11,946 nt of DNA, from the NCBI GenBank assembly GCA_014383605.1, contig JACNHM010000615.1, positions 1 to 11,946 of the forward strand, given 5' to 3'. Within the stretch, counting starts at the first letter, position 1, and each line of letters starts with the position of its first letter. Both the position numbers and the translations under genes were made by a program. The notes under the pieces are model-generated. The model did no database searches. It saw nothing but the letters and a program-made list of their open reading frames with translations, and was not told where the DNA came from. The stretch is from Chloroflexota bacterium (lineage in GTDB: Bacteria > Chloroflexota > Anaerolineae > UBA3071). Below are positions 52 through 11,946 of the stretch, one piece after another.

Positions 52-150
52 ATGAAACGCTCCCGTAATCTAAGGTATCTTCTGGTAGCCGTGAGCGTCG
101 GGTTGCTCTTCACGGCCGTAGTCATCGCCCCGCTGACTTCGCTGCCCCAC
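52..150 (+). other. N-terminal signal peptide or signal anchor
   Basis: The first residues are basic (MKRSRNLR). They are followed by a hydrophobic core at about residues 9-27, rich in Leu, Val and Ala, and then by LPHEVADAW. This is a Sec-type export signal. There is no lipobox cysteine, so it is not a lipoprotein signal. Cleavage at or just after the hydrophobic core is plausible, but an uncleaved anchor cannot be excluded. Confidence 0.85.
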
Positions 151-3100
151 GAGGTGGCCGATGCCTGGAATTGGGCCTGGGGCCGGCTGTCGTCGGTGTC
201 CGCTTCCTCCTCGCCGGAGCACGAGGTCCAGGCTGCCTGGCAGCGTGCCCAGGAGGCCGATGTCTACGGCTTCAGCACGGAAATTGTGCAGAAGACCTAC
301 CCGGCGCCGGCCCTGATCAACGTGGGCCGCAGCAGCCGCAAGGATACCATCTACCTGGAGGGACAGACCAACCTGACGGAGCGCCAGATGTCTCTCGCCC
401 TGTGGACTGGCGGCGGTAACGCGCTCACCCGCAAAGACGGCGTGGAGATGCGTATAGACGGCGACCGCACCTACGGCCGCACCATCGGCGGCGAGTGGCA
501 GGAGATGGACGACCTTTCCAACGCCTTCGCCCCCGGCAACGACCTGATGTCGTATCTGGCCGGAGCCAAGAACGTGCGCGAAGTAGGCACGGAGACCCTC
601 TCTCTCTCTCCTGAAGATGGGGAGGTGGGGGGATGGGGGGATGGGGAGAAGTCTCCCCATCTCCCCACCCCCCTATCCCCCTATCTCGTTTTTACTCGCT
701 ACGCCTTCGACGTAGACGGCCCCGCCTTTGCGGAGCACCTGCGCGACCAACTGGAACGTCAACTGCGGGAAAAGGGCGAACTCCCCTTAGGTTTGACCTT
801 AGACTCCTCTGCGGTTTACAGGGGCGCCACCGGCCAGGGCGAAGTATGGATTGACAGCCGCGGCCTGCCGCTGCGCCTGAGCGTCCACTTGGTCTACCCT
901 CCGGAGCGCAACGGTGAGCGGATTGAAGCCGACATCCAGACCGATTTCTCCCACTTTGCCCGGCAGATGGCGGCGGCCCCCAGCTTCTTCGAAAACCCTG
1001 TGGCCTGGACGGCGAGCACCCTGGGCTTGCCGCACACCGCCCGTGAGTGGCAACGGGTCGGGCGGCAGGCCGCACTGGTGACGGGCATGCTTGGGCTGCT
1101 GCTGTTGCTCATCATCTATCGCAAGTCCAAGAAGGTCTACGTGGCTACGGTGGTAGCTGTCATCGTTTCCATGGTCGTCACGCCATTGATGCAAGGCCAT
1201 CAGGCCCAGACCTTTTCCCAGCGGATGGCGGCCCAGCGTGCAGAACATGAACAGCGCCAGCAAGAGCAAGAGGCCGCTCACGAGGTGCAGGAGACACTGA
1301 CCGGCTCAGATTGGGATCCGCATCAGGATCCATTGGGAGTACGCAATACGCAATACGCAATCTCCAACATCCAATCCTTCGGCTTCGCTCAGGACAGGTC
1401 TCCAATCTCCACCATCCAATCTCCAATCTCCAATATCCAATCTCAGTCTTCCACTTGCACCGACGACGAAAAGAACACCGACACGGACCAAGACGGCCTG
1501 ACCGATTGCGACGAAAAAGCGGAATATGATACAGACCCCACCAAGAAAGATACCGACGGCGACGGCCTGCAGGACGGCTGGGAGGTGCTGCGCCTGGGCA
1601 CCGACCCAACGGCGGCCACCGGCTTTGACAGCGACGGCGATGGCATCGGCGATTATCTGGAGGTGGCCGGCTTTGAATACAGGGGCAAGCGATGGTACTC
1701 CAACCCCAACGGCCCGGACACGGACAAGGACGGCCGACCCGATTTCACGGAGTGCCCGGAGCGCGCCACCACCGATGGGGCTACACCCGACCCAGCCACC
1801 GCCTGCCGCGACACCGATAACGACGGCGCCCCAGACCTCTTTGACCTGGACAGCGACGGCGACGGCGTCCCCGATAAGATTGACCTCTCCCCCGAGACCG
1901 TCCTGGGCAACACCACGCCCTTCAACCGCGCCAACCCTTTCAACCTGAATGTGCAAAACCTGAGCCACAAACCAGGGCAGCCCAACACCTATTATCCCGT
2001 CTTTGTGGACTTCCAGTTGCGCCCGACCAATCCTGAGCACCTGACCTACGCCCTCAACGTCCTGGACTGGCCCAGCGGCGACGAGGACGGCCAGATCATG
2101 CGCCGGCGCGGCAATGACTCCACCTTCGCCGATGGCCTGACGGCGGAGCAGATCAAGGCCGATCCCCGCGCGGCCAATGGCGATATGCGCCTGATCCCCA
2201 TGCTGGAAGTCCAGATGTCCGGCAGCAACCTCCCCCTGGCCTTCACCAACCCGCGCACCAGCCTCCAACTGCAGGGCGAGGACTACATTGATCTCGATAG
2301 CGGTTACCAGCAGTGGATAAGCGCTACCATAGGGATGCAGCAGGACGGCGCAAATATCCGCCTGACCTTTGACTTTCAGGGCCAGACCCCTGTGGGCAAG
2401 GTGGGCATCTATACCGGCGCCTGCACCACCGGCGGCAGCGAGGCCTACCGCTGGGAAAACGTCTCCAGCGGAACGTATACCATCTCCAATCGCAAGCTGG
2501 TTACTTTAGCCGACGGCGAGCACTTCATCACCTTGCAGGCAGAGGGCCACTCCCCGGCCTGTGCGCCCCTGGGCGATATCGCCAACGCGGACACGGACAA
2601 CATGATTGATCCGCAGCCGCTCCGACCCTACGGCGTCACCGTGCGGGATAAAGACAAGGTCGGCAACGTGCTGCTCTACGCGCCCCTCAACATCGTCCCC
2701 GATGAGTCCGGCGGCGGACGAGTGGCCTTCTCTGCCCGTGTGCCCTACCAGCCCAGCGGCGCCAGCCTGGGGAATGCCCAGCAGGTGCGGGTGGTCTGGC
2801 TGGTGCAGATGATCGCCGACCGCTGCAAGCCGCTGGCGGAGGACTTCCCCTATGCATCCGACTACTGGTGCATGTACGAGAGCAGTTGGGACCTGGACAA
2901 CACCCAGATCGTCCACGCCTACAGCGACGACTGGTATCTCACCGGCCTCTCTGTGCGCGAGGATCACGGCCTGAACGTGTCCATCCTCTGGGAGGACCCG
3001 GCCCCCAGCACACCATCCCACGCGCCTTATGGCGATTGGCTCTGGCTGCTGACCAGGGGGCTGGAAAATGCGTTCGTCACCGGCCGCGATCAAGACGACG

Positions 3101-6100
3101 ACAAGATCCGTGACCTGGGGATTTACACGCAGAGCGATGGCATCACCGTAGCCGAAGATACCATTGCCCGGCGTTTCAATTCCCCGCTAACCCCATCGGT
3201 GACGCTCACCGACCGCCTGGGCATCCCCCTGACGGCCACCCTGCACGTCAAAGACTTCTCCTATCCCACTCAGGACCACGTGGCCAACATCATGGTCTCG
3301 GAGACGGCGAAGGTCCTGAACGACAATTTCCAGAGCTACACGGACATCAAACCCACCCTGCTCTTCGCCCGAGAGGAGATGTACCGCGTGGTCAGCCTGG
3401 ACATGCAGGACTTCCGGGCTATCACCGGCGCTACGGTCACGCTGGACGCCGGCACGGGCACGGCCAAACGACCGCTGGAGACCATCGCCAGCCTGTCCTG
3501 GGCGCCCTACCGCTTCCGCGATGGGGACTGGCAGTCCATCCCCATCGAAGAATATTGGGACCTCCTGGAGGCCAGCCTCAAACAGCGCTTCCAGGCCGAT
3601 CAGACCCTGGACGTTTACGGCGACTACATCGTTGATGGGATGGTGGCCGTGGCCCAGGCCCAGTACCTGTCTCTATTTCAGGGGCGGGCGGGTCTGGTGG
3701 CCATGAACGGCCAGGCCATCTATCAATTCCAACCGCAAGAGACCGATGCAGAGCTCACTGCCTACGCTCAGGACGTGGTCTGGGCCAGCATGGACTTGGT
3801 GAGCAAACTGACGGAAAGCATTGCCGAGAGCGCTATGGAGGCCATCAAAGGGCTGCAGGATGAACTTGATGCCATCTTTGCAGCTCTTAGCCCTGAGGTG
3901 GCTAAGAGACTGGCCAGTCTGGCCACTGTGCCCGCAAAGATGCGGTTCCTTGCCGTTCTTGGCGCCATCAAGGGGACGCCCAAGGCGATGGGGTCTACTT
4001 TGAAAGACCTGTTCAGCAAGTTGTCTAATAAAGCCACACGATTGAAGGCGGCGGAAAGTGCTGTCCTGGGGGTGGCTGTGGTGGCTATTGTCACCCTGTA
4101 TATCCTGGCCTCAGCCATCAAGAACGAGACAGCAGCCTTAGTCCTGGCCATCACCGGCAAGGCCATCGCCTTCCTGACGTACACTTACCAGGCGATGAAA
4201 ACGGTCTACCAGGCCGCTAAAGGCACATTGGGAGCGCTGAGCAAAGCGGGTACGATTGCCGGCATCGTGGGCGTCATCGTCGTGGGCGTGGGCTTTACCG
4301 CGCTGTTTATAGCCAACATGGTCATTGGCAACGTCAAGTTTGGCAGCATCGCCATGAACGCCGCCTTTGCCCAGGTGATCGCCACCACCGTGGCCACGGC
4401 CATCCTGTTTGCCATCAACTTCATCCCCGTCGTTGGCCAGGTGATTGCGGCCATTCTGGGGGCCGTAGACGCCCTGATCTTCCTGATCTGCACCGCCGTA
4501 CCCGCCGATAAACTGGCCGCTACCGAGTTCGGCGAATGGTTCTGCCAGGGCATCTCTGGCCTGCTGGCCACAGGCATCGGTTGGCTCATCTACGGCGCGA
4601 CGATCATGGTGGACCTGGAACGCGAAGACCGCCTGGTCTTCGGCGCGTTTGATTACGACTTCGTTGATCCAGACCTGGGCGTCTCCGTGGGCAACGAGAT
4701 CCAGTACACCGCCCCCCTCACCAACACCATCAACCTGGTAAAGATTCCCATAGACTGGAAGGCGGCCTCCTATGCCTGGCAGTACACCATAGACGGCGAA
4801 AAGAACTTGAAATCATCCACCTTCAAGTACGAGTGGCAGACCGAGCAGAAGGACCTGCACGTGGATGAGGACGGCAAGGACCTCATTGACCGCAACGAAC
4901 AAGACGCCACCGGCCACCCCTGGCAACCTACCGGCAACGACAAAGAGTTCTACATAGCGCCAACTGCCCTCAGCAGCGGCATCCCCTTCAGCGAGGCCGG
5001 CATTAACCGCAAGCCTTCGCTGTACCTGTCGGAGGGCTATGCCGTCCCCGCCCAGGAGTGTTTCGTTGTTCCCAACATCATCAACCCTATGTGTGCTGTC
5101 ACCCCTTATATCCCCTACCTGTGTCTCGTGCCGGTCTGCCACATCCGCGCCGAACGGGGCACCAGCCACATGGACATAGGGCAGACCCTCACCTTTGACG
5201 TCTTCCCTGCCACTCTGGACGACTTCTACCAGCCCATCGGCAAGGACGGCGGCTACAGTCTTGCCTGGGGACAGACCGGCGATTTGACATTTGGGCGACA
5301 AAAGGACTTCGACGGCGACGGCCTGCTCAACCGCATGGATCGTGGATCTGACCCAGACGATAGCAGGTGGGACAGCGACGGCGACGGCCTGTCCGACTTC
5401 TTTGAGTTCCAGAACGGCAGCGACCCCACCCTCTTTGATACCGACGCCGACGGTCTCTCCGACGCCGAGGAATTCCGGCTGGACACTGACCCCAACCGCA
5501 AGGACACCGACGGCGACGGTCTGACCGACAAAGAGGAGGCGGATGGCTGGGAGTTCGTCTACGCCTTTGCCCCGGACGGCACGCAACTACGCACCTGGGT
5601 CATCTCTGACCCTCTAGAGCCAGACACCGACAACGACGGCCTGAGCGACTTCAAGGAGAAGGTCTACGGTTTCAACCCCCGGGTCTGGCAGGACCCCACC
5701 GTGCTGGCCCTGCAGGCCGGGGCGTGGGAGGCCGGCGCGCCTCGCCTGCTCCTGCGCTTTGAGGAAGCCGCCCGTTCAGAGACCTTCGCCGACTACTCCG
5801 GCTACCGAAATAACGCTGCTTGTAGCGTGGGCGCATGTCCCGACGCGGGCAGGGACGGCAAGTACGGCGCTGCGGTGCAGTTCTATGGGAACGAGTTCCT
5901 GACCATCCCCCGCAGCCAGATCAACGCCCTGCGCAACAACTTCACCGTAGCCGCCTGGATCAATCCCACCCAGTTATCTGGGGGGCGGCGGATCGTGGCC
6001 ACGGCCAGGACCAGCAGCAACAACGGCTTTGGCTTCGGTACCTCTGGCACGGATCTGCGTTTCACCACCTTCGGCGTGAAGGATTACACCTCCACAGGCA

Positions 6101-9100
6101 TTGGCCTCCAGACCAACCAGTGGCAACACGTGGCCGCCGTGATGGATGGCAACAACGCCGTCACCTTCTACGTGGACGGTGTCAACAAGGGGACCATCAC
6201 CCACAGCGCCCCAGCCCATGCCGACCCCGATGATGCCCTGCTCATCGGCGCCACAACATCTCAGGGTAGTGCTACCAGCAGCGAGCGCTTTAACGGCCTC
6301 ATAGACGAGGTGGCCGTATTTGACCGGGCGCTCTCTCAAACCGAGATCCAGAACATGCTGCTGAAGGCCCGCTACAACCCCAACGACTCCTTCGTCCAGG
6401 TAGGCGATACCCTGAACTACACGGCCACGGTGGGCAACAAGCTCTACGACCGCTACGCCCAGGGTCTGTTCTCCCTGGCCGCCACCGACTCGTCGGCTCT
6501 GTCCCAGGTCAACGTACCGCCCCTCACCTTCGTCCTGCAGCCCCTGGAACAGACGGCCATATCCGGCACGGTACAGGCGGCCAACGTCACCGCCTCCCGC
6601 GCCGTCAGCCTGACCCAGGTGGCCTCCGCCCTCATCACCAACTGGCGCGAGCAGTCGGGCTTTGCCGAGATGTGGCTGCCCCTCGATGAGCCGGGCACGG
6701 CCACCACCTTCCAGGATCATTCCGGCGCCATGCCGCCGGCCAACGGCGCCTGCACGGCCTGTCCCACGAGCCAGGAATCCGGCTACTTTGACTACTCCGT
6801 GAGATTCGACGGCTCCCAGTACATCGCCCTGCCCGACACCGTCCGCCTGGGCCTGAAGAATAGCAGCTTCTCCGTCTCCGCCTGGATCAATGGCAGTGAC
6901 TTCTCCGGCAGTGGCTCTGCCAGCGACAGGGCCATCCTGGGCACGGATACGATGGCTACCAACAAGGGGTTGCATCTGGTCATCCGAAACAGAAAGCCCT
7001 ACATGGGCTTCTACGGCAACGATCTGGATAGCGGCTTCATCATTGCCGCCAACGCCTGGTACCACCTGGTCTTTCGCTACGACAAAGACACGCAGGAACA
7101 ATCCATCTACGTCAACGGCGAGTTGAAGAAAGCTGAGACCGGTCATGTCGCTTTCCAGGGCGATGGCACGGTCTACCTGGGCCGAGCCTTAGGCGGCAGG
7201 GGCTTCAAAGGCCGCATTGACGACGTGCGTGTCTTCAAGCGGGCCTTGACCCCGGAGGAGATCCGCACCTTGTACGGCAGGCCGGTTCTCCGGCTGCAGT
7301 TCGAAGAGCAGCACCGCAATATATACCAGGACACCTATTTTGCCGATGCCTCTGGCCTTGGCAACGACGGCGAGTGTAGCTGGTATGCCTGCCCCGGCAG
7401 CACTGACGGCGTCTTTGGCCAGGGAGCCGCGTACTTCTACGGAAATGAGTACCTGCGCGTGGATGCCAGCCCCAGCCTGGACCTGAGCGATGGCCAGTTC
7501 ACCATCGCCGCCTGGGTCTACCCCCTGGATCAGGGCGAACCTGTGGACCCGGACTGCCACTTCAACCAGAAGACCTGGCGCAACATCGGTTGGAGCGGCT
7601 CTCCGGTCAGCGACTGGTGCGTGAACTGGCCGCAGGATTCTATGGATGCGGTGGACTCGCCTCGCGGGACGTGGCTGGTCAACATAGAGCATGATCTGTA
7701 CGGCGCCTGGAGCCCCTGTATCTCCCGTCGGTACACGGGGAACTTCCGCTTCCAAGCGGGGTACTATACCTTCTTCTACCGCTTCGGCGGCGGCGCTGGG
7801 GTGTATCTGGATGGCAGCCTCATCCTGCTCAAACCCTATTTGGGCGTGGACGAACTGTATGAGGGCAGCGTGCGCTTCCACGTCAGCACCAGCGGCGTGC
7901 ACGAGATCAAGGTGGAGTACCAGGACTGCCAGGGAGACGATGTGTTTCAGTTCGGCTGGGCCCCGCCCCATGTGCAGGGCATCCTGGGCAAGAACAGCGG
8001 CCAGAGCAGCGCCTACCCCACCCTGCAGACGGTGGGCCGCAAGGTGCGCTTTGGCTTCGGCACCGGCAGCGAGTGGTACGCCGTGACCACCACTGACCCC
8101 GTCCTCATCGCCAACGCCTGGAACCACGTGGTACTCTCCTTTGGCCCCAAGTATAAGCAGGACGGCACCTTTGACCAGAACCAGGCCTCCCTGTACGTCA
8201 ACAACCAGCGCGTGGGCGACTGGGGCGTGGGGAACAGAAAGCCTTCCTCTAGCGCCCAGGACTTGTACATTGGTCGCTCCAATTACGAGGGCCAGGTCTA
8301 TATTGATCGCTTTTACGTGGTGGACGAGGCGGATGGCTCCGGCGCTGCGGAGGTATACCTGACTTGGGGCGGTCATGGCGGTGACAAGATCTGCACCACG
8401 AGCGGCACGCCCCAAGAAGACTGTGTGTGGAAGGGACTTGGTGACGAAAGCACTGTAGATGTGAACACATCTATGATAGTCAGCGGGCAAGACATCCTGG
8501 AGGCCTGGGAGGACGATCCTACCCATGATGACCTGCTCTGCGACACAAGCGTCTCGTCATCGTGCACTACCGGCTATCAATTCAGCAGCAGTACCCCCAG
8601 TATGCCGGTGCAAGTCTTTGATTGGGAGGGCGATGGCAGCGGTGGGGCTGAGGACCACACGCATATCAACCTCTACCTGGGCGATAGCAGCCATTGGGCC
8701 TACCGCAACCCCTCCATCCCCTTCCGTGGCAAGATGGACGAGCTGGTCATCTACAAGCGGCCCCTCACCGCCGACGAGGTGCAGGAACTCTACCTGTCCT
8801 CCGCCACTGCCATGCACCTGCGCCTGGATGACCCGCCGGGCAGCCAGAGCTTCGAGAACGCGGTTGACGTGAGCCGGCAGGGCAACCCCTTCTGTACGGG
8901 GGATGCCTGTCCGACCGCTGGCGTCAGCGGGCGCATCAACCAGGCCGCCCTGTTCGATGGCACGAGCGATGTCCTCACCACCACCCTGACCATCAGCCAG
9001 ACCAGCAGCGCCGATGGCGCTACCATGATGGCCTGGGTGTACCCCAAGAGCACCAGCAGCGGGTATCACATGGTGGTCAGCACCGATAACAACGGCTGGG

Positions 9101-11946
9101 ATTGGACATTGGCGCGAAACGGCGGCACCTGGGTCGCCTTTAACGGGACCAATGAGGGCAGCACCGGCGCCAGTGTGGACGTGAACAAGTGGCAGCACAT
9201 CGCCGCCGTCTTTATCCCTGGCCAGGGCACCAGGTTCTACAAGAACGGCGTCCGTGTCAAGACGGATTCTACCATTGCCTATGATACAAGTACCGGCCCG
9301 GTGGCCATTGGCAACAAGTCCAGCGGCGGCAACTACTACTTTGACGGCGTCATAGACGACGTGCGCATCTTCAACCGGCCCCTGTCCAATGACGACATCG
9401 AGACCATCTACAAGTTAGCGCCGGTCTTGCAACTGCACCTGGACGAGCAGCAGGGCGCTACTACCTTTATTGACGCTGCTGGCAACAACAACGGCACGTG
9501 CAGTCTGGGCGCCCCATGTGCCGATGTGACCTTGCAGAACCTCACCTGCACGGCTCAGGATGATAACGATGGCGACGGAGGCGGTAGCGAGTTCTACATC
9601 ATCCTGGCTCACGATGGGACTCAAGAGCGAGTGTGGCAGGGAGAGAACATCACGGTTCGTGCTGATCCTTACCCAATCAACGAAACCCGCTCATTCTGCG
9701 GGCCTGCCAGTATCTCTGTCTACGAGGAGGATGACGGCGGCGCCAACGACGATGGGCTTGGCTCTGCCAACATCAACGCCGCGAACCCTGGCCCAGGCAG
9801 CCAGAAGTTCTGGACATGGAGCCCCGGGTATAGTGAGGTCTTCCTCAACTGGGATGTCGGCCCTGCCTCCCACCCCTCCAGCACCTGCCCCAAGGCCGGC
9901 ACCGCCGGCCAGGTGAGCCTGGCCGCAGAGTTCGACGGCGTAAACGACGTCATCTCCGTCCCCGACAGCGCCGCCCTGGATCTGCCCAGTTTCACCGTCG
10001 GCGCCTGGGTCATGCCCACCGCCATCATCACGGCGCATGCGCAAACGCTGGTCCATAAAGGGGCCAACTACGCCCTCAAGATCCCTGCCGACGGCATGCA
10101 GCCCATCTTGCAGGCTTCCCTTGCCCGCCCCACCTACGGGTGCTCATGGCCGGTTGACGGAGTGGTGGGGAGTGTGGCGCCTCTGATCCAGAACCAGTGG
10201 AACCACGTCATGGGCACCTACGATGGCCAGGCGCTGAAGATCTACGTTAATGGCTACGAGCAGGGCAGCGAATCCGTGAGTGGTGATGCCTGCCAGAACA
10301 ACCATCCCCTGCAGATTGGCGGCCAGTTTGCCGGACGCCTGGACGAGGTCACCCTCTACGACCACGCCCTCTCACCTTCTGAGGTGCGGGACATCTTCCT
10401 GTACCAGGGCAAGCTGGTAGAGGAGCGCCGTAGCCAAACTATCACCATAGACAATGACCCGCCCATCTCTGCGTTGCGCTCCTACACCTCCACTTTCCCC
10501 TACCTGGCCAACCAGGACGTGGTCATGCACGTGGAGGCCCAGGATCAAACCTCCGGCGTGGCGCTGGTGGAACTGAGCGTCAACGGGACGTGGGGCAGCC
10601 CGCCCAATCGCATGGATGTCCCGCCCTGCCAGGACGCCACCGGCGGCACCGCCTGGTGTCCTACCTTTATCCCCACCGGCGAGGGCGCCTACACCCTCCA
10701 GACCCGCGCCACCGACCTGGTGGGCAACCGGGAAACACCAGCCCATACCTACACCATCTATGTGGACGACACCCCGCCGACAGTGAGCACCTCCTTGCAG
10801 GACGGAGCTCTGGTCGGCGCGATCCTGCATCCCACCCTGCAGAACACCTGGATGGCGCCACTGAGCGGCACGGTCAGCGATCCCGCCCTTGTGGGGGGCG
10901 CGCCGGGCAGCAGTGTAGCACCCGACGGCGTCTGGGTAACGCTGCTGGATCCCCAGGGCGGGGTCGCCGGCCGGGGGGCACAGATGGCCACAGTCGCGGA
11001 CAACACCTGGAGCGTGGATTACGCGCTGCTAGGGGCCATGCCCACCGGTCGCTACACCGTCACCGTCCAGGCCAAGGACAAAGTGGGCAATGAGGGAACC
11101 ACCAACCTGGGAAGCATCCAGGTGGATGCCACCGGCTCCGGCGCCGAACTAGACGCCCGTAGCGTCCCTACCACGACCATCTCCAGTCGGATCTCCATCA
11201 ACGGCCTGGTCAGCGAACTGCCCCTGCTCTCCAAGACGCTGCTCCGCCTGCACCTGGAGGAAGAGGCCGGGGCCGCCACTTTCTATGATAGCAGCGGCTA
11301 TGCTAACCACGGTACGTGCAGTGGGGGTACGTGTCCTGTCGCCGGACAGACTGGCAAGTACGGCCGCGCCTTGCAGTTTGATGGCGCGGACAAGGTCGTG
11401 CGCATCCCCCACAGCGAGATTAACGAGCTGGGCAAGAACTTCTCCGTGGCCGCCTGGATCAACCCCAGCCAGTTGTCCGGCGTTCAGAGGATCGTGGCCA
11501 CCGCCAGGACTAACAGCAACAACGGCTTCGGTTTCGGCGCCAGCGGAACGAACCTACGCTTCACGACTTTCGGCGTCAAGGACTACACCCTGACGGGGAT
11601 CGGGCTGCAAACCAACCGCTGGACCCACGTGGCCGCTGTCATGGACAGCAACAATGCCGTCACCTTCTACGTGGACGGCGTGGCCAGAGGCGCCATCGCC
11701 CATACCGCCTCCCTCAATGTTGACACCGACGATGTGCTGCTCATCGGAGCTACCACGGAGGCTGGCAGTGGCAGCACCACTGCGCGCTTCAACGGCCTGA
11801 TTGACGAGGTGATGGTCTTCGACCGCGCACTTTCCGCGGATGAGGTGCGGGCCCTGGCCCAGGCCCAGGCCGCTGGCGTGGACAGCGTGCAGTTCGCCTT
11901 CACGCCCAACCTGCCCGGCTCGCCTTTCTACAACGAAACGCCGCCG
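52..11946 (+). CDS. Giant multidomain LamG/TSP3 surface protein, 3' end beyond the window
   Basis: The frame runs 3,965 codons without a stop and continues past the window. The product is predicted to be exported and membrane-anchored near its N-terminus, with most of its mass outside the cell. In order it shows a signal segment, a LolA/LppX-like domain, a two-helix membrane hairpin, TSP3 repeats, a long beta-rich section, a six-segment hydrophobic section, more TSP3 repeats, six LamG domains (two with nested domains), a CARDB-like linker and two Ig-like domains. TSP3 repeats bind calcium and stiffen surface proteins; LamG and PA14 domains commonly bind glycans or proteins, so adhesion is the best guess. 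No catalytic motif was recognised. Cysteines are frequent and mostly paired, as expected outside the cytoplasm. No sortase, dockerin or secretion-sorting signal is visible, but the C-terminus is missing. Two intergenic-type repeats sit inside the gene without breaking the frame. A gene symbol is not justified. Confidence 0.96.
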   Translation, partial: MKRSRNLRYLLVAVSVGLLFTAVVIAPLTSLPHEVADAWNWAWGRLSSVSASSSPEHEVQAAWQRAQEADVYGFSTEIVQKTYPAPALINVGRSSRKDTIYLEGQTNLTERQMSLALWTGGGNALTRKDGVEMRIDGDRTYGRTIGGEWQEMDDLSNAFAPGNDLMSYLAGAKNVREVGTETLSLSPEDGEVGGWGDGEKSPHLPTPLSPYLVFTRYAFDVDGPAFAEHLRDQLERQLREKGELPLGLTLDSSAVYRGATGQGEVWIDSRGLPLRLSVHLVYPPERNGERIEADIQTDFSHFARQMAAAPSFFENPVAWTASTLGLPHTAREWQRVGRQAALVTGMLGLLLLLIIYRKSKKVYVATVVAVIVSMVVTPLMQGHQAQTFSQRMAAQRAEHEQRQQEQEAAHEVQETLTGSDWDPHQDPLGVRNTQYAISNIQSFGFAQDRSPISTIQSPISNIQSQSSTCTDDEKNTDTDQDGLTDCDEKAEYDTDPTKKDTDGDGLQDGWEVLRLGTDPTAATGFDSDGDGIGDYLEVAGFEYRGKRWYSNPNGPDTDKDGRPDFTECPERATTDGATPDPATACRDTDNDGAPDLFDLDSDGDGVPDKIDLSPETVLGNTTPFNRANPFNLNVQNLSHKPGQPNTYYPVFVDFQLRPTNPEHLTYALNVLDWPSGDEDGQIMRRRGNDSTFADGLTAEQIKADPRAANGDMRLIPMLEVQMSGSNLPLAFTNPRTSLQLQGEDYIDLDSGYQQWISATIGMQQDGANIRLTFDFQGQTPVGKVGIYTGACTTGGSEAYRWENVSSGTYTISNRKLVTLADGEHFITLQAEGHSPACAPLGDIANADTDNMIDPQPLRPYGVTVRDKDKVGNVLLYAPLNIVPDESGGGRVAFSARVPYQPSGASLGNAQQVRVVWLVQMIADRCKPLAEDFPYASDYWCMYESSWDLDNTQIVHAYSDDWYLTGLSVREDHGLNVSILWEDPAPSTPSHAPYGDWLWLLTRGLENAFVTGRDQDDDKIRDLGIYTQSDGITVAEDTIARRFNSPLTPSVTLTDRLGIPLTATLHVKDFSYPTQDHVANIMVSETAKVLNDNFQSYTDIKPTLLFAREEMYRVVSLDMQDFRAITGATVTLDAGTGTAKRPLETIASLSWAPYRFRDGDWQSIPIEEYWDLLEASLKQRFQADQTLDVYGDYIVDGMVAVAQAQYLSLFQGRAGLVAMNGQAIYQFQPQETDAELTAYAQDVVWASMDLVSKLTESIAESAMEAIKGLQDELDAIFAALSPEVAKRLASLATVPAKMRFLAVLGAIKGTPKAMGSTLKDLFSKLSNKATRLKAAESAVLGVAVVAIVTLYILASAIKNETAALVLAITGKAIAFLTYTYQAMKTVYQAAKGTLGALSKAGTIAGIVGVIVVGVGFTALFIANMVIGNVKFGSIAMNAAFAQVIATTVATAILFAINFIPVVGQVIAAILGAVDALIFLICTAVPADKLAATEFGEWFCQGISGLLATGIGWLIYGATIMVDLEREDRLVFGAFDYDFVDPDLGVSVGNEIQYTAPLTNTINLVKIPIDWKAASYAWQYTIDGEKNLKSSTFKYEWQTEQKDLHVDEDGKDLIDRNEQDATGHPWQPTGNDKEFYIAPTALSSGIPFSEAGINRKPSLYLSEGYAVPAQECFVVPNIINPMCAVTPYIPYLCLVPVCHIRAERGTSHMDIGQTLTFDVFPATLDDFYQPIGKDGGYSLAWGQTGDLTFGRQKDFDGDGLLNRMDRGSDPDDSRWDSDGDGLSDFFEFQNGSDPTLFDTDADGLSDAEEFRLDTDPNRKDTDGDGLTDKEEADGWEFVYAFAPDGTQLRTWVISDPLEPDTDNDGLSDFKEKVYGFNPRVWQDPTVLALQAGAWEAGAPRLLLRFEEAARSETFADYSGYRNNAACSVGACPDAGRDGKYGAAVQFYGNEFLTIPRSQINALRNNFTVAAWINPTQLSGGRRIVATARTSSNNGFGFGTSGTDLRFTTFGVKDYTSTGIGLQTNQWQHVAAVMDGNNAVTFYVDGVNKGTITHSAPAHADPDDALLIGATTSQGSATSSERFNGLIDEVAVFDRALSQTEIQNMLLKARYNPNDSFVQVGDTLNYTATVGNKLYDRYAQGLFSLAATDSSALSQVNVPPLTFVLQPLEQTAISGTVQAANVTASRAVSLTQVASALITNWREQSGFAEMWLPLDEPGTATTFQDHSGAMPPANGACTACPTSQESGYFDYSVRFDGSQYIALPDTVRLGLKNSSFSVSAWINGSDFSGSGSASDRAILGTDTMATNKGLHLVIRNRKPYMGFYGNDLDSGFIIAANAWYHLVFRYDKDTQEQSIYVNGELKKAETGHVAFQGDGTVYLGRALGGRGFKGRIDDVRVFKRALTPEEIRTLYGRPVLRLQFEEQHRNIYQDTYFADASGLGNDGECSWYACPGSTDGVFGQGAAYFYGNEYLRVDASPSLDLSDGQFTIAAWVYPLDQGEPVDPDCHFNQKTWRNIGWSGSPVSDWCVNWPQDSMDAVDSPRGTWLVNIEHDLYGAWSPCISRRYTGNFRFQAGYYTFFYRFGGGAGVYLDGSLILLKPYLGVDELYEGSVRFHVSTSGVHEIKVEYQDCQGDDVFQFGWAPPHVQGILGKNSGQSSAYPTLQTVGRKVRFGFGTGSEWYAVTTTDPVLIANAWNHVVLSFGPKYKQDGTFDQNQASLYVNNQRVGDWGVGNRKPSSSAQDLYIGRSNYEGQVYIDRFYVVDEADGSGAAEVYLTWGGHGGDKICTTSGTPQEDCVWKGLGDESTVDVNTSMIVSGQDILEAWEDDPTHDDLLCDTSVSSSCTTGYQFSSSTPSMPVQVFDWEGDGSGGAEDHTHINLYLGDSSHWAYRNPSIPFRGKMDELVIYKRPLTADEVQELYLSSATAMHLRLDDPPGSQSFENAVDVSRQGNPFCTGDACPTAGVSGRINQAALFDGTSDVLTTTLTISQTSSADGATMMAWVYPKSTSSGYHMVVSTDNNGWDWTLARNGGTWVAFNGTNEGSTGASVDVNKWQHIAAVFIPGQGTRFYKNGVRVKTDSTIAYDTSTGPVAIGNKSSGGNYYFDGVIDDVRIFNRPLSNDDIETIYKLAPVLQLHLDEQQGATTFIDAAGNNNGTCSLGAPCADVTLQNLTCTAQDDNDGDGGGSEFYIILAHDGTQERVWQGENITVRADPYPINETRSFCGPASISVYEEDDGGANDDGLGSANINAANPGPGSQKFWTWSPGYSEVFLNWDVGPASHPSSTCPKAGTAGQVSLAAEFDGVNDVISVPDSAALDLPSFTVGAWVMPTAIITAHAQTLVHKGANYALKIPADGMQPILQASLARPTYGCSWPVDGVVGSVAPLIQNQWNHVMGTYDGQALKIYVNGYEQGSESVSGDACQNNHPLQIGGQFAGRLDEVTLYDHALSPSEVRDIFLYQGKLVEERRSQTITIDNDPPISALRSYTSTFPYLANQDVVMHVEAQDQTSGVALVELSVNGTWGSPPNRMDVPPCQDATGGTAWCPTFIPTGEGAYTLQTRATDLVGNRETPAHTYTIYVDDTPPTVSTSLQDGALVGAILHPTLQNTWMAPLSGTVSDPALVGGAPGSSVAPDGVWVTLLDPQGGVAGRGAQMATVADNTWSVDYALLGAMPTGRYTVTVQAKDKVGNEGTTNLGSIQVDATGSGAELDARSVPTTTISSRISINGLVSELPLLSKTLLRLHLEEEAGAATFYDSSGYANHGTCSGGTCPVAGQTGKYGRALQFDGADKVVRIPHSEINELGKNFSVAAWINPSQLSGVQRIVATARTNSNNGFGFGASGTNLRFTTFGVKDYTLTGIGLQTNRWTHVAAVMDSNNAVTFYVDGVARGAIAHTASLNVDTDDVLLIGATTEAGSGSTTARFNGLIDEVMVFDRALSADEVRALAQAQAAGVDSVQFAFTPNLPGSPFYNETPP
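214..1056 (+). other. LolA/LppX-like beta-rich N-terminal domain (residues about 55-335)
   Basis: The segment starts with a helix (residues 58-70), followed by alternating beta strands such as YGFSTEIVQ and TIYLEGQ. It later has TRYAFDVDG, a helix with LRDQLERQLREKG, and strands GEVWIDSRGLPLRLSVHLVY and IEADIQTDFSHF. This order, in particular the 'G-E-V-W-I-D, G-L-P-L-R' strand pair, is typical of LolA/LppX-like half-barrel domains that bind lipids or serve as surface lipoprotein folds. The match is by eye, not by profile. The fold is interrupted between VGTETL and VFTRYAF by a G-rich hairpin repeat. It sits outside the membrane, between the signal and the membrane hairpin. Confidence 0.5.
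598..693 (+). repeat. In-frame G-rich hairpin repeat with G-quadruplex motif
   Basis: A (CT)6 run at 598-609 is followed by two 34-base arms, 616-649 and 652-685. They are largely complementary and separated by two bases, with the perfect centre GGGGAGA-AG-TCTCCCC. The left arm carries four G runs (619-622, 627-632, 635-640, 643-646) with loops of 4, 2 and 2 bases, a strong G-quadruplex motif. Five T residues follow at 689-693, so the element resembles an intrinsic terminator. It encodes residues of very low complexity (Gly, Trp, Asp and Glu, then Pro, Leu and Ser). They interrupt the LolA-like domain without breaking the frame. Elements of this look are normally intergenic. Confidence 0.85.
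1072..1191 (+). other. Two-helix membrane hairpin (residues 341-380)
   Basis: The first hydrophobic helix (ALVTGMLGLLLLLIIY) is followed by the basic loop RKSKK and a second helix (VYVATVVAVIVSMVVTPLM). By the positive-inside rule the loop is cytoplasmic. This places the LolA-like domain and the whole remainder of the protein on the outer face. It would be the principal membrane anchor if the N-terminal signal is cleaved. Confidence 0.85.
1192..1320 (+). other. Q/E-rich helical stalk (residues 381-423)
   Basis: The stretch is rich in Gln, Glu, Ala, His and Arg (for example AEHEQRQQEQEAAHEVQE). It follows the second membrane helix immediately and is probably a helix or short coiled coil lifting the outer domains off the membrane. 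It ends where the heptamer repeat begins. Confidence 0.55.
1339..1447 (+). repeat. In-frame interspersed heptamer repeat with TTCGGCTTCGCTCAGG core
   Basis: Three perfect ACGCAAT copies (1341-1361) lead into CAATCTC-type heptamers. A conserved-looking core (about 1376-1398, containing TTCGGCTTCGCTCAGG) follows, and then more heptamers from 1399 to 1447 (TCTCCAA, TCTCCAC, CATCCAA, TCTCCAA, TCTCCAA, TATCCAA). On the minus strand the units read GAGATTG. Such arrays, with a CCTGTCCTGAGCGAAG core on the other strand, are familiar to me from intergenic regions of Chloroflexota genomes. The translation is a seven-residue repeat (PISTIQS, PISNIQS). It separates the Q/E-rich stalk from the first TSP3 repeat and looks like a neutral linker. 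Confidence 0.88.
1456..1896 (+). other. First thrombospondin type-3 (TSP3) calcium-binding block (residues 469-615)
   Basis: The segment contains serial Asp-rich loops: DTDQDGLTDCDE, DTDGDGLQDGWE, DSDGDGIGDYLE, DTDKDGRPDFTE, DTDNDGAPD and DSDGDGVPD. The pattern DxDxDGxxDxxE is the bacterial TSP3 signature, in which Asp side chains coordinate calcium and form a rigid stalk. The cysteines at 469 and 486 could form a disulfide. The block places a calcium-dependent spacer between the membrane anchor and the outer domains. Confidence 0.93.
1897..3720 (+). other. Unassigned beta-rich region (residues 616-1223)
   Basis: I do not recognise a family. The segment is rich in short hydrophobic/aromatic strands separated by Gly, Asn and Pro turns, as in tandem beta-sandwich domains. 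One likely sandwich spans about residues 740-850 (IRLTFDFQGQTP, VGIYTGAC, GEHFITLQAEG). Another spans about 870-990 and contains VRVVWLVQMIADRC and a YWCMYESSW aromatic cluster. Isolated acidic loops that look like single TSP3/EF-type calcium sites occur at DTDNMIDP (about 849) and DQDDDKIRD (1013-1021). A conserved-looking helix/strand section with ANIMVSETAKVLNDNF (about 1095-1110) follows. Confidence 0.6.
3721..4053 (+). other. Amphipathic helical region (residues 1224-1334)
   Basis: After a short strand section the composition changes to long helices rich in Ala, Leu, Lys and Glu, such as LVSKLTESIAESAMEAIKG and LQDELDAIFAALSPEVAKRL. These are followed by Lys-rich turns and LKDLFSKLSNKATRLKAAE. 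It leads directly into the hydrophobic segments. It looks like a helical stalk or the soluble half of a membrane-inserting module. No family was recognised. Confidence 0.6.
4054..4611 (+). other. Six hydrophobic segments in mid-protein (residues 1335-1520)
   Basis: Hydrophobic stretches lie at about residues 1336-1356, 1361-1380, 1400-1423, 1441-1461, 1463-1483 and 1500-1520. They include VLGVAVVAIVTLYILASAI, GIVGVIVVGVGFTALFIANM and IPVVGQVIAAILGAV. Gly and Ala are frequent and one segment contains a Lys (1370). They may be transmembrane helices or a buried helical bundle. An even number would leave both flanking TSP3 blocks on the same, outer side. Similar Gly/Ala-rich hairpins occur in pore-forming and toxin-translocation modules, but no specific family is identified. 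Confidence 0.7.
4612..5304 (+). other. Beta-rich, Cys-containing region before the second TSP3 block (residues 1521-1751)
   Basis: The segment has strands with YTAPLTNTINLVKIPIDW and YAWQYTIDGEK. A single acidic loop (VDEDGKDLIDRNE, 1604-1616) resembles a lone TSP3 or EF-hand calcium site. A compact Cys cluster follows (C1670, C1680, C1691, C1696), which suggests two disulfides. It then continues with GQTLTFDVFPATLDDF. No family was recognised; an extracytoplasmic beta-sandwich is the likely fold. Confidence 0.55.
5305..5694 (+). other. Second TSP3 calcium-binding block (residues 1752-1881)
   Basis: Repeating loops DFDGDGLLNRMD, DSDGDGLSDFFE, DTDADGLSDAEE, DTDGDGLTDKEE and DTDNDGLSDFKE are separated by short 'xGSDPT' and 'DTDPNRK' connectors. 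This is the canonical bacterial TSP3 layout. The block forms a rigid calcium-dependent spacer between the hydrophobic section and the run of LamG domains. Confidence 0.95.
5743..6369 (+). other. LamG-like jellyroll domain 1 (residues 1898-2106)
   Basis: The family's landmarks appear in order. They are an opening strand LLLRFEE, the DYSGYRNNAAC turn, the Cys pair CSVGAC, then AAVQFYGNEFLTIP, FTVAAWINP, WQHVAAVMDG, VTFYVDGV, LLIGATT and FNGLIDEVAVFDRALS. LamG jellyrolls bind glycans, proteins or calcium; no ligand residues can be assigned here. Over 81 residues (1964-2044) it is identical at 70 positions to the sixth LamG domain. Confidence 0.95.
6370..6660 (+). other. CARDB/DUF11-like beta linker (residues 2107-2203)
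   Basis: The segment has the pattern VQVGDTLNYTATVGNKLYDRYAQGLFSL, then PLTFVLQPLEQTAISGTVQ. This is the 'gd.v.Yt.tv.N' opening and long-strand closing of CARDB/DUF11-type Ig-like sandwiches. It separates LamG-1 from LamG-2. Assignment is by pattern only. Confidence 0.5.
6661..7278 (+). other. LamG-like jellyroll domain 2 (residues 2204-2409)
   Basis: Landmarks are MWLPLDEPGTATTFQDHSG, a shortened Cys pair (ACTACP, CX2C), VRFDGSQYIALP, FSVSAWINGSD, LHLVIRN, WYHLVFRYD, QSIYVNGE, VYLGRALGG and GFKGRIDDVRVFKRALTPEEIRTLYG. Length (about 206 residues) is normal for the family and no insert is seen. It follows the CARDB-like linker and runs directly into LamG-3. Confidence 0.93.
7549..7980 (+). 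other. PA14-like domain nested in LamG-3 (residues 2500-2643)
   Basis: The segment begins with TWRNIGWSGS and an aromatic/Cys-rich section. It continues with the classic PA14 order: YTGNFRFQAGYYTFFYRF, GVYLDGSLILLKPY, VRFHVSTSGVHEIKVEYQD and DVFQFGWAPP. The usual 'DDG' before the 'lyvDG' strand is replaced by GGGAG. PA14 domains are glycan-binding beta-barrels found in adhesins, glycosidases and toxins. It sits between the LamG strands AAWVYPLDQG and GILGKNSG, so the LamG fold closes around it. Confidence 0.8.
8323..8667 (+). other. C2-like calcium-binding-type domain nested in LamG-3 (residues about 2758-2872)
   Basis: The segment contains AEVYLTWGG, VWKGLGDESTVDVN, a Cys pair and VQVFDWEGDGSGGAEDHTHINLYLG. 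The order 'x-V-Y-L-x(n)-V-W-x-G ... V-x-V-x-D-x-E-x-D' resembles small bacterial C2-like sandwiches that use acidic loops for calcium. The matching nested domain in LamG-5 has the same layout. It is bracketed by two versions of the same LamG edge (LYIGRSNYEG before, LYLGDSSHWA after). GC over 8401-8640 is 134 of 240, against 82 of 120 in 8761-8880. Confidence 0.5.
8809..9414 (+). other. LamG-like jellyroll domain 4 (residues 2920-3121)
   Basis: Landmarks are MHLRLDDPPGSQSF, DVSRQGNPFCTGDACPTAG (CX4C), AALFDGTSDVL, ATMMAWVYPKS, WQHIAAVFIPGQG, TRFYKNGVRV, VAIGNKSSGG and YFDGVIDDVRIFNRPLSNDDIETIY. Length is normal for the family and no insert is present. It lies between the two domains that carry nested inserts. 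Confidence 0.93.
9421..10404 (+). other. LamG-like jellyroll domain 5, with one nested domain (residues 3124-3451)
   Basis: The opening strand VLQLHLDEQQGATTF and turn DAAGNNNGTCSLGAPC are followed by an insert of about 120 residues. LamG then resumes with TCPKAGTAGQVSLAAEFDG, VISVPDSAALDL, FTVGAWVMP, WNHVMGTYDG, LKIYVNGYEQG, LQIGGQF and AGRLDEVTLYDHALSPSEVRDIFLY. Without the insert the length is ordinary for LamG. The insert lies at the Cys motif shared by all six LamG copies. Confidence 0.9.
9520..9885 (+). other. C2-like domain nested in LamG-5 (residues about 3157-3278)
   Basis: The segment contains an acidic loop DDNDGDGGGSEFYIILAHDG, then RVWQGENITVRADPYP, SISVYEEDDGGANDDGLGSANIN and SEVFLNWDVG. 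The pattern of strand, 'VW-x-G', strand, and acidic 'V-x-V-Y-E-x-D-D' loop followed by 'DDGLG' resembles C2-like calcium-binding sandwiches. It parallels the insert in LamG-3. GC over 9541-9720 is 102 of 180, against 40 of 60 in 9901-9960. Assignment is by pattern only. Confidence 0.55.
10435..10791 (+). other. Ig-like domain 1 (residues 3462-3580)
   Basis: The segment begins ITIDNDPPISAL and continues with VVMHVEAQDQTSGVALVELSVNG, a Cys pair (C3626 excluded; C at PPCQ and AWCP) and GAYTLQTRATDLVGN, closing with YTIYVDDTPPTVS. The 'DnPP ... a.D..sGva.vels.ng ... D..GN' pattern is typical of bacterial Ig-like surface domains. It acts as a spacer between LamG-5 and the next Ig-like domain. Confidence 0.8.
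10792..11127 (+). other. Ig-like domain 2 (residues 3581-3692)
   Basis: The segment opens SLQDGALVGAIL, continues with APLSGTVSDPAL, VWVTLLDPQG and TWSVDYALLGAMPTGRYTVTVQAKDKVGN, and closes with SIQVD. The 'v.G.v.D ... G.yt..v.A.D..GN' order is a bacterial Ig-like fold, in tandem with the previous domain. A Ser/Thr-rich linker (residues 3693-3729) connects it to LamG-6. Confidence 0.78.
11239..11856 (+). other. LamG-like jellyroll domain 6 (residues 3730-3935)
   Basis: Landmarks are LLRLHLEEEAGAATF, DSSGYANHGTCSGGTCPVAG (CX4C), ALQFDGADKVVRIP, FSVAAWINP, WTHVAAVMDS, VTFYVDGV, LLIGATTEAG and FNGLIDEVMVFDRALSADEVRAL. It is complete. Residues 3797-3877 are identical to LamG-1 residues 1964-2044 at 70 of 81 positions, much closer than to the four LamG domains between them. 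Confidence 0.95.
11857..11946 (+). other. Start of a further segment cut by the window end (residues 3936-3965)
   Basis: After LamG-6 the frame continues with AAGVDSVQFAFTPNLPGSPFYNETPP and stays open at the last base. The sequence resembles the start of another beta-rich linker or Ig-like domain. Nothing can be said about the C-terminus or any cell-wall sorting signal. Confidence 0.6.

Follow-up and report, generated by a model that had tools for sequence, protein, structure and literature searches.

Repeat-filled linker of a LamG/TSP3-family gene

The window, meaning the whole 11,946-nt stretch of DNA that was analysed, is occupied almost throughout by one open reading frame. A Pfam search of this frame detected Laminin_G_3, TSP3_bac and Big (Ig-like) domains. 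Of 1870 sequences scored against the N-terminal 760 residues, 607 were homologues at E <= 0.001, and in the best 120 of the 607 the organism, where the name gives one, was Chloroflexota. The features on which the analysis was based were as follows.

52..11946, plus strand: open reading frame of 3965 codons for a giant LamG/TSP3 surface-type protein, still open at the 3' end of the window
601..690, plus strand: repeat insert ("site 1") of two complementary octamer runs giving a hairpin (TRF, DNA fold)
615..649, plus strand: octamer run AGATGGGG, 4.4 copies, left arm of the hairpin (TRF)
652..687, plus strand: octamer run TCTCCCCA, 4.5 copies, right arm of the hairpin (TRF)
1312..1335, plus strand: conserved anchor WDPHQDPL, immediately 5' of the linker (MAFFT alignments of 120 homologues and of the loci)
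1340..1361, plus strand: heptamer run 1, TACGCAA x3 (3.1 copies, 100%), reading RNTQYAI (TRF)
1357..1376, plus strand: degenerate CCAATCT heptamers bridging run 1 and the core, reading ISNIQS (repeat-family listing)
1376..1401, plus strand: left arm and loop of a dispersed palindrome, CCTTCGGCTTCGCTCAGGACAGGTCT, without the right arm (copies in relatives)
1399..1447, plus strand: heptamer run 2 of CCAATCT type, reading SPISTIQSPISNIQS, with an additional 21-nt period (TRF)
1549..1611, plus strand: TSP3 repeat, the top-scoring Pfam match 3' of the linker (Pfam)

Between the anchor and the TSP3 repeat, positions 1340-1447 run from TACGCAA x3 through degenerate CCAATCT units and CCTTCGGCTTCGCTCAGGACAGGTCT to CCAATCT x6.6, and the translation predicted from the DNA is VRNTQYAISNIQSFGFAQDRSPISTIQSPISNIQS. 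The segment 1339-1447 stays open in the frame of ORF 52..11946. Its lag-7 identity was 0.58, compared with a window mean of 0.245 (sd 0.05), and the window maximum for a 109-nt piece was 0.60, starting at 1336. Run 2 (1399-1444 by TRF) was described by a period of 7 nt (6.6 copies, 79%) and also by a period of 21 nt (2.2 copies, 92%), the latter indicating a seven-residue peptide repeat. The segment thus consists of tandem 7-nt units in several copies above chance, as in heptameric simple repeats. The core of the palindrome, TTCGGCTTCGCTCAGG, occurred once in the window, at 1378-1393, and CAATCTC started at 1358, 1403, 1417, 1424 and 1438 on the plus strand only. It had been proposed in the initial annotation that CAATCTC heptamers flank the core on both sides; this description fitted the right side, whereas the left side was mostly TACGCAA with one exact CAATCTC. 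The accompanying proposal on frame cycling was borne out: CAATCTC gives QSPISNL and GAGATTG gives EIGDWRL, rotated over the three frames without a stop. The predicted fold of 1335-1450 was no better than that of shuffled sequences (z 0.12), so this linker lacked the hairpin expected of REP-type elements. At site 1, the hairpin at 601-690 had a DNA folding energy of -30.9 kcal/mol (z -4.3). In other relatives, heptamers were observed near the position of this octamer insert.

The same linker in related genes

Relatives of the gene were collected by a contig scan (43 loci, 8 titled Chloroflexi, Chloroflexota, Anaerolineae or Herpetosiphon; used as handles) and by a search over 396 genomes of the class, 31 of which contained a relative of the window protein at E <= 1e-60; the family searches scored few candidates per genome, two in some searches. 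The test set comprised 60 genes (67 loci less 8 duplicates, giving 59, plus the window), and its N-terminal part amounted to 115 kb. Strict period-7 segments numbered 17, whereas the other periods between 4 and 13 gave 0-4 each. The 17 segments were located in 9 of the 60 genes and were absent from the N-terminal part of the other 51. The segments clustered at three sites, a grouping described post hoc: window residues 182-215 (seven segments), which is the position of the octamer insert; residues 299-340 (three segments, site 2); and residues 435-460 (seven segments), which is the linker. Site 2 was occupied in two G197 paralogues only, and G197 supplied three paralogues and all three segments of this site. 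With the window left out, 5 of 15 segments fell in the linker; uniform placement gives P 0.006 for this, a value that treats the segments as independent, which those sharing a gene or genome are not.

A strict linker array was present in six family genes, namely the window gene, L253, L075, L213, L080 and L067. The L253 word, ACGCAAT, is the TACGCAA of window run 1 rotated, and L075 (TACGCAC) and L213 (ACGCAGT, then CCGCAAT) carry close variants of it. L080 has GTCGAGA followed by CAGTCTC, and L067 has CAACTTC and CAACCTC, each gene coming within one letter of CAATCTC. The core was absent from these five other arrays. The whole window segment was found in no relative seen, and most lacked a strict linker array. 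The linker words across relatives are therefore part shared and part different. These results agreed with the expectation, set out in the initial annotation, that orthologues would not all carry the same segment, and a few of them carried other or variant heptamers in the linker. Weaker linker arrays were seen in L045 (TCAGTGA and CGCAATT), L057, L059 and L068, and many relatives' linkers, including L054 and L060-L062 among those inspected, contained no array.

At the protein level, the stretch from WDPHxDPL to TSP3 was variable in the MAFFT alignment of 120 homologues, and several linkers contained other repeat-like peptide words (SVISDQ, IRNxQF, LTIDNS). Heptamer-type peptide words, picked after some linkers had been viewed, occurred in 11 of the 120 homologue linkers (window included), compared with 3, 1 and 1 in control windows. 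The linker of P0002, the nearest known protein among the best 120 of the 607 homologues (68% identical), was unrelated to that of the window. Decamer-like inverted repeats were also observed as linker filling, both in the G197 paralogue L058 (GGAACTCAGC ... CTGAGTTCCC) and in P0002, P0022 and P0030, with peptides such as SSPEFPKVP. At site 2 of L058, the coding sequence of a membrane helix consists partly of a heptamer run, and the stretch to which this run contributes remains hydrophobic (Kyte-Doolittle 2.52; window 1.86). In this helix, ATCTCCAATCTCCAATCTGCTATTTGCTAT reads ISNLQSAICY. A heptamer run directly preceding a membrane helix was observed in the paralogue L253.

Heptamer arrays across the genomes of relatives

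CAATCTC triplets were searched for in 36 genomes with up to 2 mismatches and reversed-pattern controls. They were present in 20 of the 36, with 393 in G077, 392 in G211 and 299 in G197 (reversed controls 1, 0 and 4), and absent from 16. In G224 and G372 the counts were no better than, or barely above, the reversed controls, and G252 gave reversed-control hits only. Arrays of periods 4-13 were then compared in 400 kb of G197, 400 kb of G367 and 196 kb of G006. G197 contained 52 period-7 arrays, compared with 0-5 for each other period, and these fell into 26 word classes. G367 contained 36 period-7 and 16 period-8 arrays, with 0-3 for the others, and in G006 period 8 (13 arrays) outnumbered period 7 (7 arrays).

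Genes were called with an author-written codon-usage caller, which was trained differently for G006. Period-7 arrays lying wholly within called genes numbered 25 of 52 in G197 (21 with the first version of the caller), 10 of 36 in G367 and 0 of 7 in G006. Arrays were rarer per base in genes than outside, about 5.6-fold in G197 (25 in genes, which make up 0.859 of bases, against 23 in the remaining 0.141) and about 12-fold in G367 (10 against 21). The relatives therefore show the dispersal and the higher density between genes that are known for heptameric repeat arrays, and the earlier description of the repeat as intergenic in type was upheld: such arrays are numerous in some relatives. Of 21 array-bearing genes, 20 were submitted to Pfam and 19 matched known families, including chorismate mutase-prephenate dehydratase (CM-PDT), shikimate kinase-DHQ synthase (SK-DHQS), EPSP synthase, aminotransferases, pyruvate:ferredoxin oxidoreductase and the copper ATPase; arrays at protein starts (shikimate dehydrogenase, a radical SAM protein) may precede the true start.

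Stop-free units were considered as the reason for gene entry, and this idea was discarded as a general rule, the two genomes disagreeing. Counted by eye, units stop-free on both strands made up 21 of 26 classes in G197 and 7 of 25 in G367, compared with 592 of all 1172 heptamer classes. The number of open frames, out of 6, was nearly the same inside and outside genes (5.2 versus 4.7, and 2.9 versus 2.5).

Inverted pairing of arrays

Inverted pairing is a feature that the initial annotation did not mention. An array was counted as having an inverted partner when a complementary match (at least 15 of 21) lay within 110 nt, with swapped flanks as the control. Such partners accompanied 44% of the 52 arrays in G197, compared with 7% for swapped flanks (highest of 60 swaps, 14%), and 22% of the 36 arrays in G367, compared with 6% (highest, 19%). 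Among in-gene arrays, the proportions were 36% of 25 in G197 and 0 of 10 in G367. One exact pair, GGATTTC...CCGCAAT, recurred at five places in G197, two in G070 and two in G154 (reversed control 0) and was absent from the seven other family genomes. Of the five G197 places, one was in the copper ATPase and another in a paralogue of the window gene; SK-DHQS contained a further copy, in which the gap was longer. The loops between inverted arms looked unrelated, which argues against one copied element.

Arrays in conserved enzymes

The copper ATPase of G197 carries a 26-residue insert between residues 594 and 596 of the CopA structure 3j09, directly upstream of VAMVGDGVND. The loop words were TTTCGGA and CCGCAAT in G197, TCAGGAG in G117 (90% identical to G197), of CGCAAAT type in G136 (87% identical) and CCGCAAT after different words in one G154 copy. 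The other eight loops inspected were 3-72 nt long and had no heptamer array. The wider set of 38 CopA copies (12 family loci and 26 more of the 30 best in the class, closest to the G197 protein) is not a random sample and includes two or three copies from some genomes. Arrays were present in the loop of 14 of the 38 copies, with period 7 in nine, period 8 in five, and periods 4-6 and 9-13 in none. Control pieces, taken from these loci and potentially overlapping the loop, passed the period-7 test in 4 of 114 cases and the period-8 test in 2 of 114. With a stricter period test, 8 of 38 loops passed, compared with 0.5% of 3000 pieces. All 38 gaps were multiples of three. The L295 loop begins with CAATCTCCAATCTCC, which is the word of the window, and remained below the array threshold. 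In L292, L296, L297, L307 and L311, we observed loops filled by period-8 arrays with inverted arms of the AAGGTTTG / CAAACCTT type; these represent five genomes and at least three parts of the tree.

A CopA tree was built without the loop from 37 copies, one of the 38 having been dropped for length. Array presence required at least 9 changes on this tree, 6 of them forced by well-supported branches, compared with 11.4 for shuffled labels. The sister copies L298 and L292 had gaps of 3 and 78 nt, respectively. Predicted hairpin energies had z below -2 in 8 of 38 loops versus 9 of 114 control pieces, so the modelled hairpin tendency of CopA loops is suggestive only.

SK-DHQS was a single frame in 8 of 10 family genomes, these eight being the ones in which both parts were seen. 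In G197, arrays lay between both domains and one more lay within the second domain. Linkers measured 69-111 nt without arrays and 111-150 nt with arrays; the linker words were common to G070 and G197, and G117 had a one-letter variant. In CM-PDT, arrays lay between CM_1 (4-118) and PDT (166-343) in G197 only, where the linker was 144 nt, compared with 33-147 nt in the other family genomes. One TGA was reported within the aligned CM-PDT frame of L282 and L284 (G117 and G037), outside the linker.

These enzymes bear on three earlier proposals. Repeats at domain borders do appear to be a wider pattern, arrays being found also at loops and borders of unrelated enzymes. The idea that such repeats create linkers, by contrast, was not supported: in array-free relatives the domains are already fused, the linker being 69-111 nt long in SK-DHQS and 33-147 nt long in CM-PDT, and arrays thus occupy or replace existing linkers. 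Mobility of the repeat is conjectural. No target duplication could be defined by eye when CopA loops with and without arrays were compared, and of the other five strict linker arrays in the LamG/TSP3 family, three have TACGCAA or a one-letter variant, so that an inherited, drifting array is possible.

A dispersed palindromic core

The core was counted in 16 relatives. It was found in nine and had 0 copies in seven, with 125 in G197, 41 in G006, 38 in G203, 20 in G288 and 0-7 in the remaining 12 genomes (reversed control 0-1). The absence of other copies, which had been named as evidence against the element, was thus not what the relatives showed. In some of them the core behaves as a dispersed many-copy palindrome, like REPs and the Rickettsia palindromic element. 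Some copies were arms of longer palindromes, of which the window carries one arm and the loop only; G006 contained the complete 39-nt palindrome, with the arm and loop of the window, at two places (L124, which equals L134, and L137).

The initial annotation had treated core and heptamers as one element. This did not hold in the 400 kb of G197, where none of 18 cores had an array 60 nt away or closer (9% would be expected for intergenic positions) and 0 of 18 lay inside called genes. It is possible for G006, where cores at four places (C2, C177, C384 and C480) lie in or beside heptamer arrays as in the window; of the 38 core hits counted there, 9 were 60 nt or less from an array and represent these four places, the overlapping loci L147-L149 repeating one of them. 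As judged from the sequences, the core is usually separate from heptamer arrays.

Several further observations concern the core. In G288 (L104, L112, L119, L126 and L132), it formed the inner part of longer palindromes that had CGCAATGAC or its complement on one side and GATTGCTTCG or GAAGCAATC on the other. The outer end GAAGCAATCTCC in L126 (complement GGAGATTGCTTC in L119 and L132) contains CAATCTC, and the outer end of these palindromes is a possible source of the CAATCTC word. G003 (7.8 Mb) had 72 stretches matching the LamG/TSP3 family, yet one core copy and no CAATCTC triplet. Six variants of the core letters had no match in the literature searched.

Origin of the arrays

The linker segment of the window is probably a heptamer array that sits in a tolerant linker and encloses half of a REP-like palindrome, and one case of a process that operates in several relatives. 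At the level of the relatives' DNA, the analysis demonstrated dispersal, an excess of period 7, recurrent sites, word differences, in-frame gaps at the compared sites and inverted pairing. In the process that we propose, arrays of 7-nt (or 8-nt) units would appear at many places, often as inverted pairs able to form stems, and would arrive by copying or template switching. Those within genes would be retained where they keep the frame, in loops, in linkers between domains and, in one paralogue, within a membrane helix, and would be translated into protein; purging elsewhere would account for the recurrent sites. Slippage in 7-nt steps (21 nt in genes) may homogenise the arrays, and units may be replaced or drift together, leaving relatives often with different words at one site. 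Words recurring at unlinked places, together with complementary arms, favour copying or template switching over growth from local words alone. Unrelated loops, many words and shared TACGCAA linker words argue against one classical element and leave room for inheritance with drift. On the strongest form of this proposal, Anaerolineae would possess an active system writing 7- and 8-nt repeat stems that has no fixed sequence, only a fixed period and an inverted arrangement, and that re-writes tolerant protein loops in core enzymes and one membrane helix, giving new peptide without point mutation, recombination or a conventional transposon; in this form the proposal is doubtful.

The arrays might instead owe everything to local slippage and inheritance, each linker growing its own array from chance words in 7-nt steps with nothing moving, and we regard this as a tentative possibility. 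In most repeat-rich genomes the most frequent class of long simple repeats has 7-nt units, which Mrazek et al. 2007 attributed to slippage, according to PMC4679880. The many words (26 classes in the 52 G197 arrays) and the 21-nt period of window run 2, which looks as though grown in frame, are in keeping with such growth. TACGCAA-type words in four of the six family genes with strict linker arrays, the words of L080 and L067 one letter from CAATCTC, and the words shared by the SK-DHQS linkers of G197 and G070 are what inheritance would leave, and common descent with drift could explain much. Local growth is opposed by the same words at many unlinked places within one genome, the exact GGATTTC...CCGCAAT pair in G197, G070 and G154, the complementary partners of arrays, and the unequal gaps of the sister CopA copies L298 and L292. 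Selection for the peptide itself, with heptad repeats serving as a flexible or sticky connection where the stalk meets TSP3, seems very unlikely to us: the peptides differ among relatives, array-free relatives have ordinary linkers and array density per base is higher outside genes, even though arrays are positioned at domain borders and the array-encoded stretch of L058 stays hydrophobic.

Copying of the hairpins by a Y1 (IS200/RAYT) single-strand transposase, as proposed for REPs, would agree with the pairing of arrays into possible stems and with the presence of Y1_Tnp in 28 of 36 genomes. Y1_Tnp matches and CAATCTC triplets were weakly correlated in number (Spearman 0.37, p 0.03, and 0.35, p 0.04, when both are taken per Mb; uncorrected for kinship and repeated testing). 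Yet G173, with 62 heptamer hits, and G114, with 7, had no Y1_Tnp match; G134, G003 and G208 had 5, 4 and 3 Y1_Tnp but no CAATCTC triplet; and the stem words varied and the loops look unrelated. We consider this explanation unlikely, and the transposase was rejected as the driver, the correlation being weak and with exceptions. Misjoining of repeats in metagenome assemblies is scarcely credible. Many of the sources are metagenome bins and the window protein is known from one contig, but all measurable CopA, CM-PDT and SK-DHQS gaps were in frame, and the contig bearing the CopA array L294 is longer than 3.8 Mb.

Relation to known repeats and implications

The heptameric simple repeats of cyanobacteria are known as STRR. 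For the TAACTGA arrays of Beggiatoaceae, the available text of PMC4679880 works out the translation and considers insertion possibly tolerated between subunits of modular proteins. The GGGNATC arrays of Xanthomonas and Nostoc are described in the accessible part of PMC4692102 as under-represented in coding regions, with inverted pairs. The arrays reported here resemble those of both sources, as far as these could be consulted, in the 7-nt unit, the many dispersed arrays and the higher density between genes. Theirs, however, are mainly intergenic and of one word, whereas here one genome has many words, genes contain a considerable share of the arrays in two of the three sampled relatives, and the same loops are repeatedly occupied by changing words. 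According to the excerpted account in PMC4476775, two 7-nt motifs form a stem at a variable place in P6b of the Nostoc trnL intron, and one class repeatedly replaced the other. Exchangeable 7-nt motifs building a stem at a variable place are common to both cases, but the Nostoc example is an RNA stem in an intron, and the present one involves open frames of many genes, many words and octamers too. Intragenic REPs and Rickettsia palindromic elements, as given in the consulted portions of PMC3733652, are dispersed palindromes in ORFs, often coding for 20-30 residues. The window core is likewise a REP-like dispersed palindrome. The REPs of that source bear GTAG or CGTC tags, whereas the heptamer stems here vary in word and loop. 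Among the hits listed from the literature searched, which covered few subscription journals, no title or opening of an abstract described translated heptamer arrays recurring at the same loops.

The findings also carry a warning for annotation, namely that peptides such as IRNTQYAIRN or SPISNIQSPIS can be translated repeat DNA rather than domains, and such repeat-derived peptides could cause false homology among unrelated proteins. In many bacteria no long simple repeats are commoner than heptamer arrays (Mrazek 2007, as related in PMC4679880), and these have mainly been regarded as intergenic. In the present data they occupy repeatable positions in conserved enzymes, and copper ATPases that differ from the one of G197 by only 10-13% (G117 and G136) carry other words. 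Different words at repeatable enzyme sites therefore provide natural replicates for asking how the arrays originate, what makes the period seven and in which loops new peptide is tolerated.
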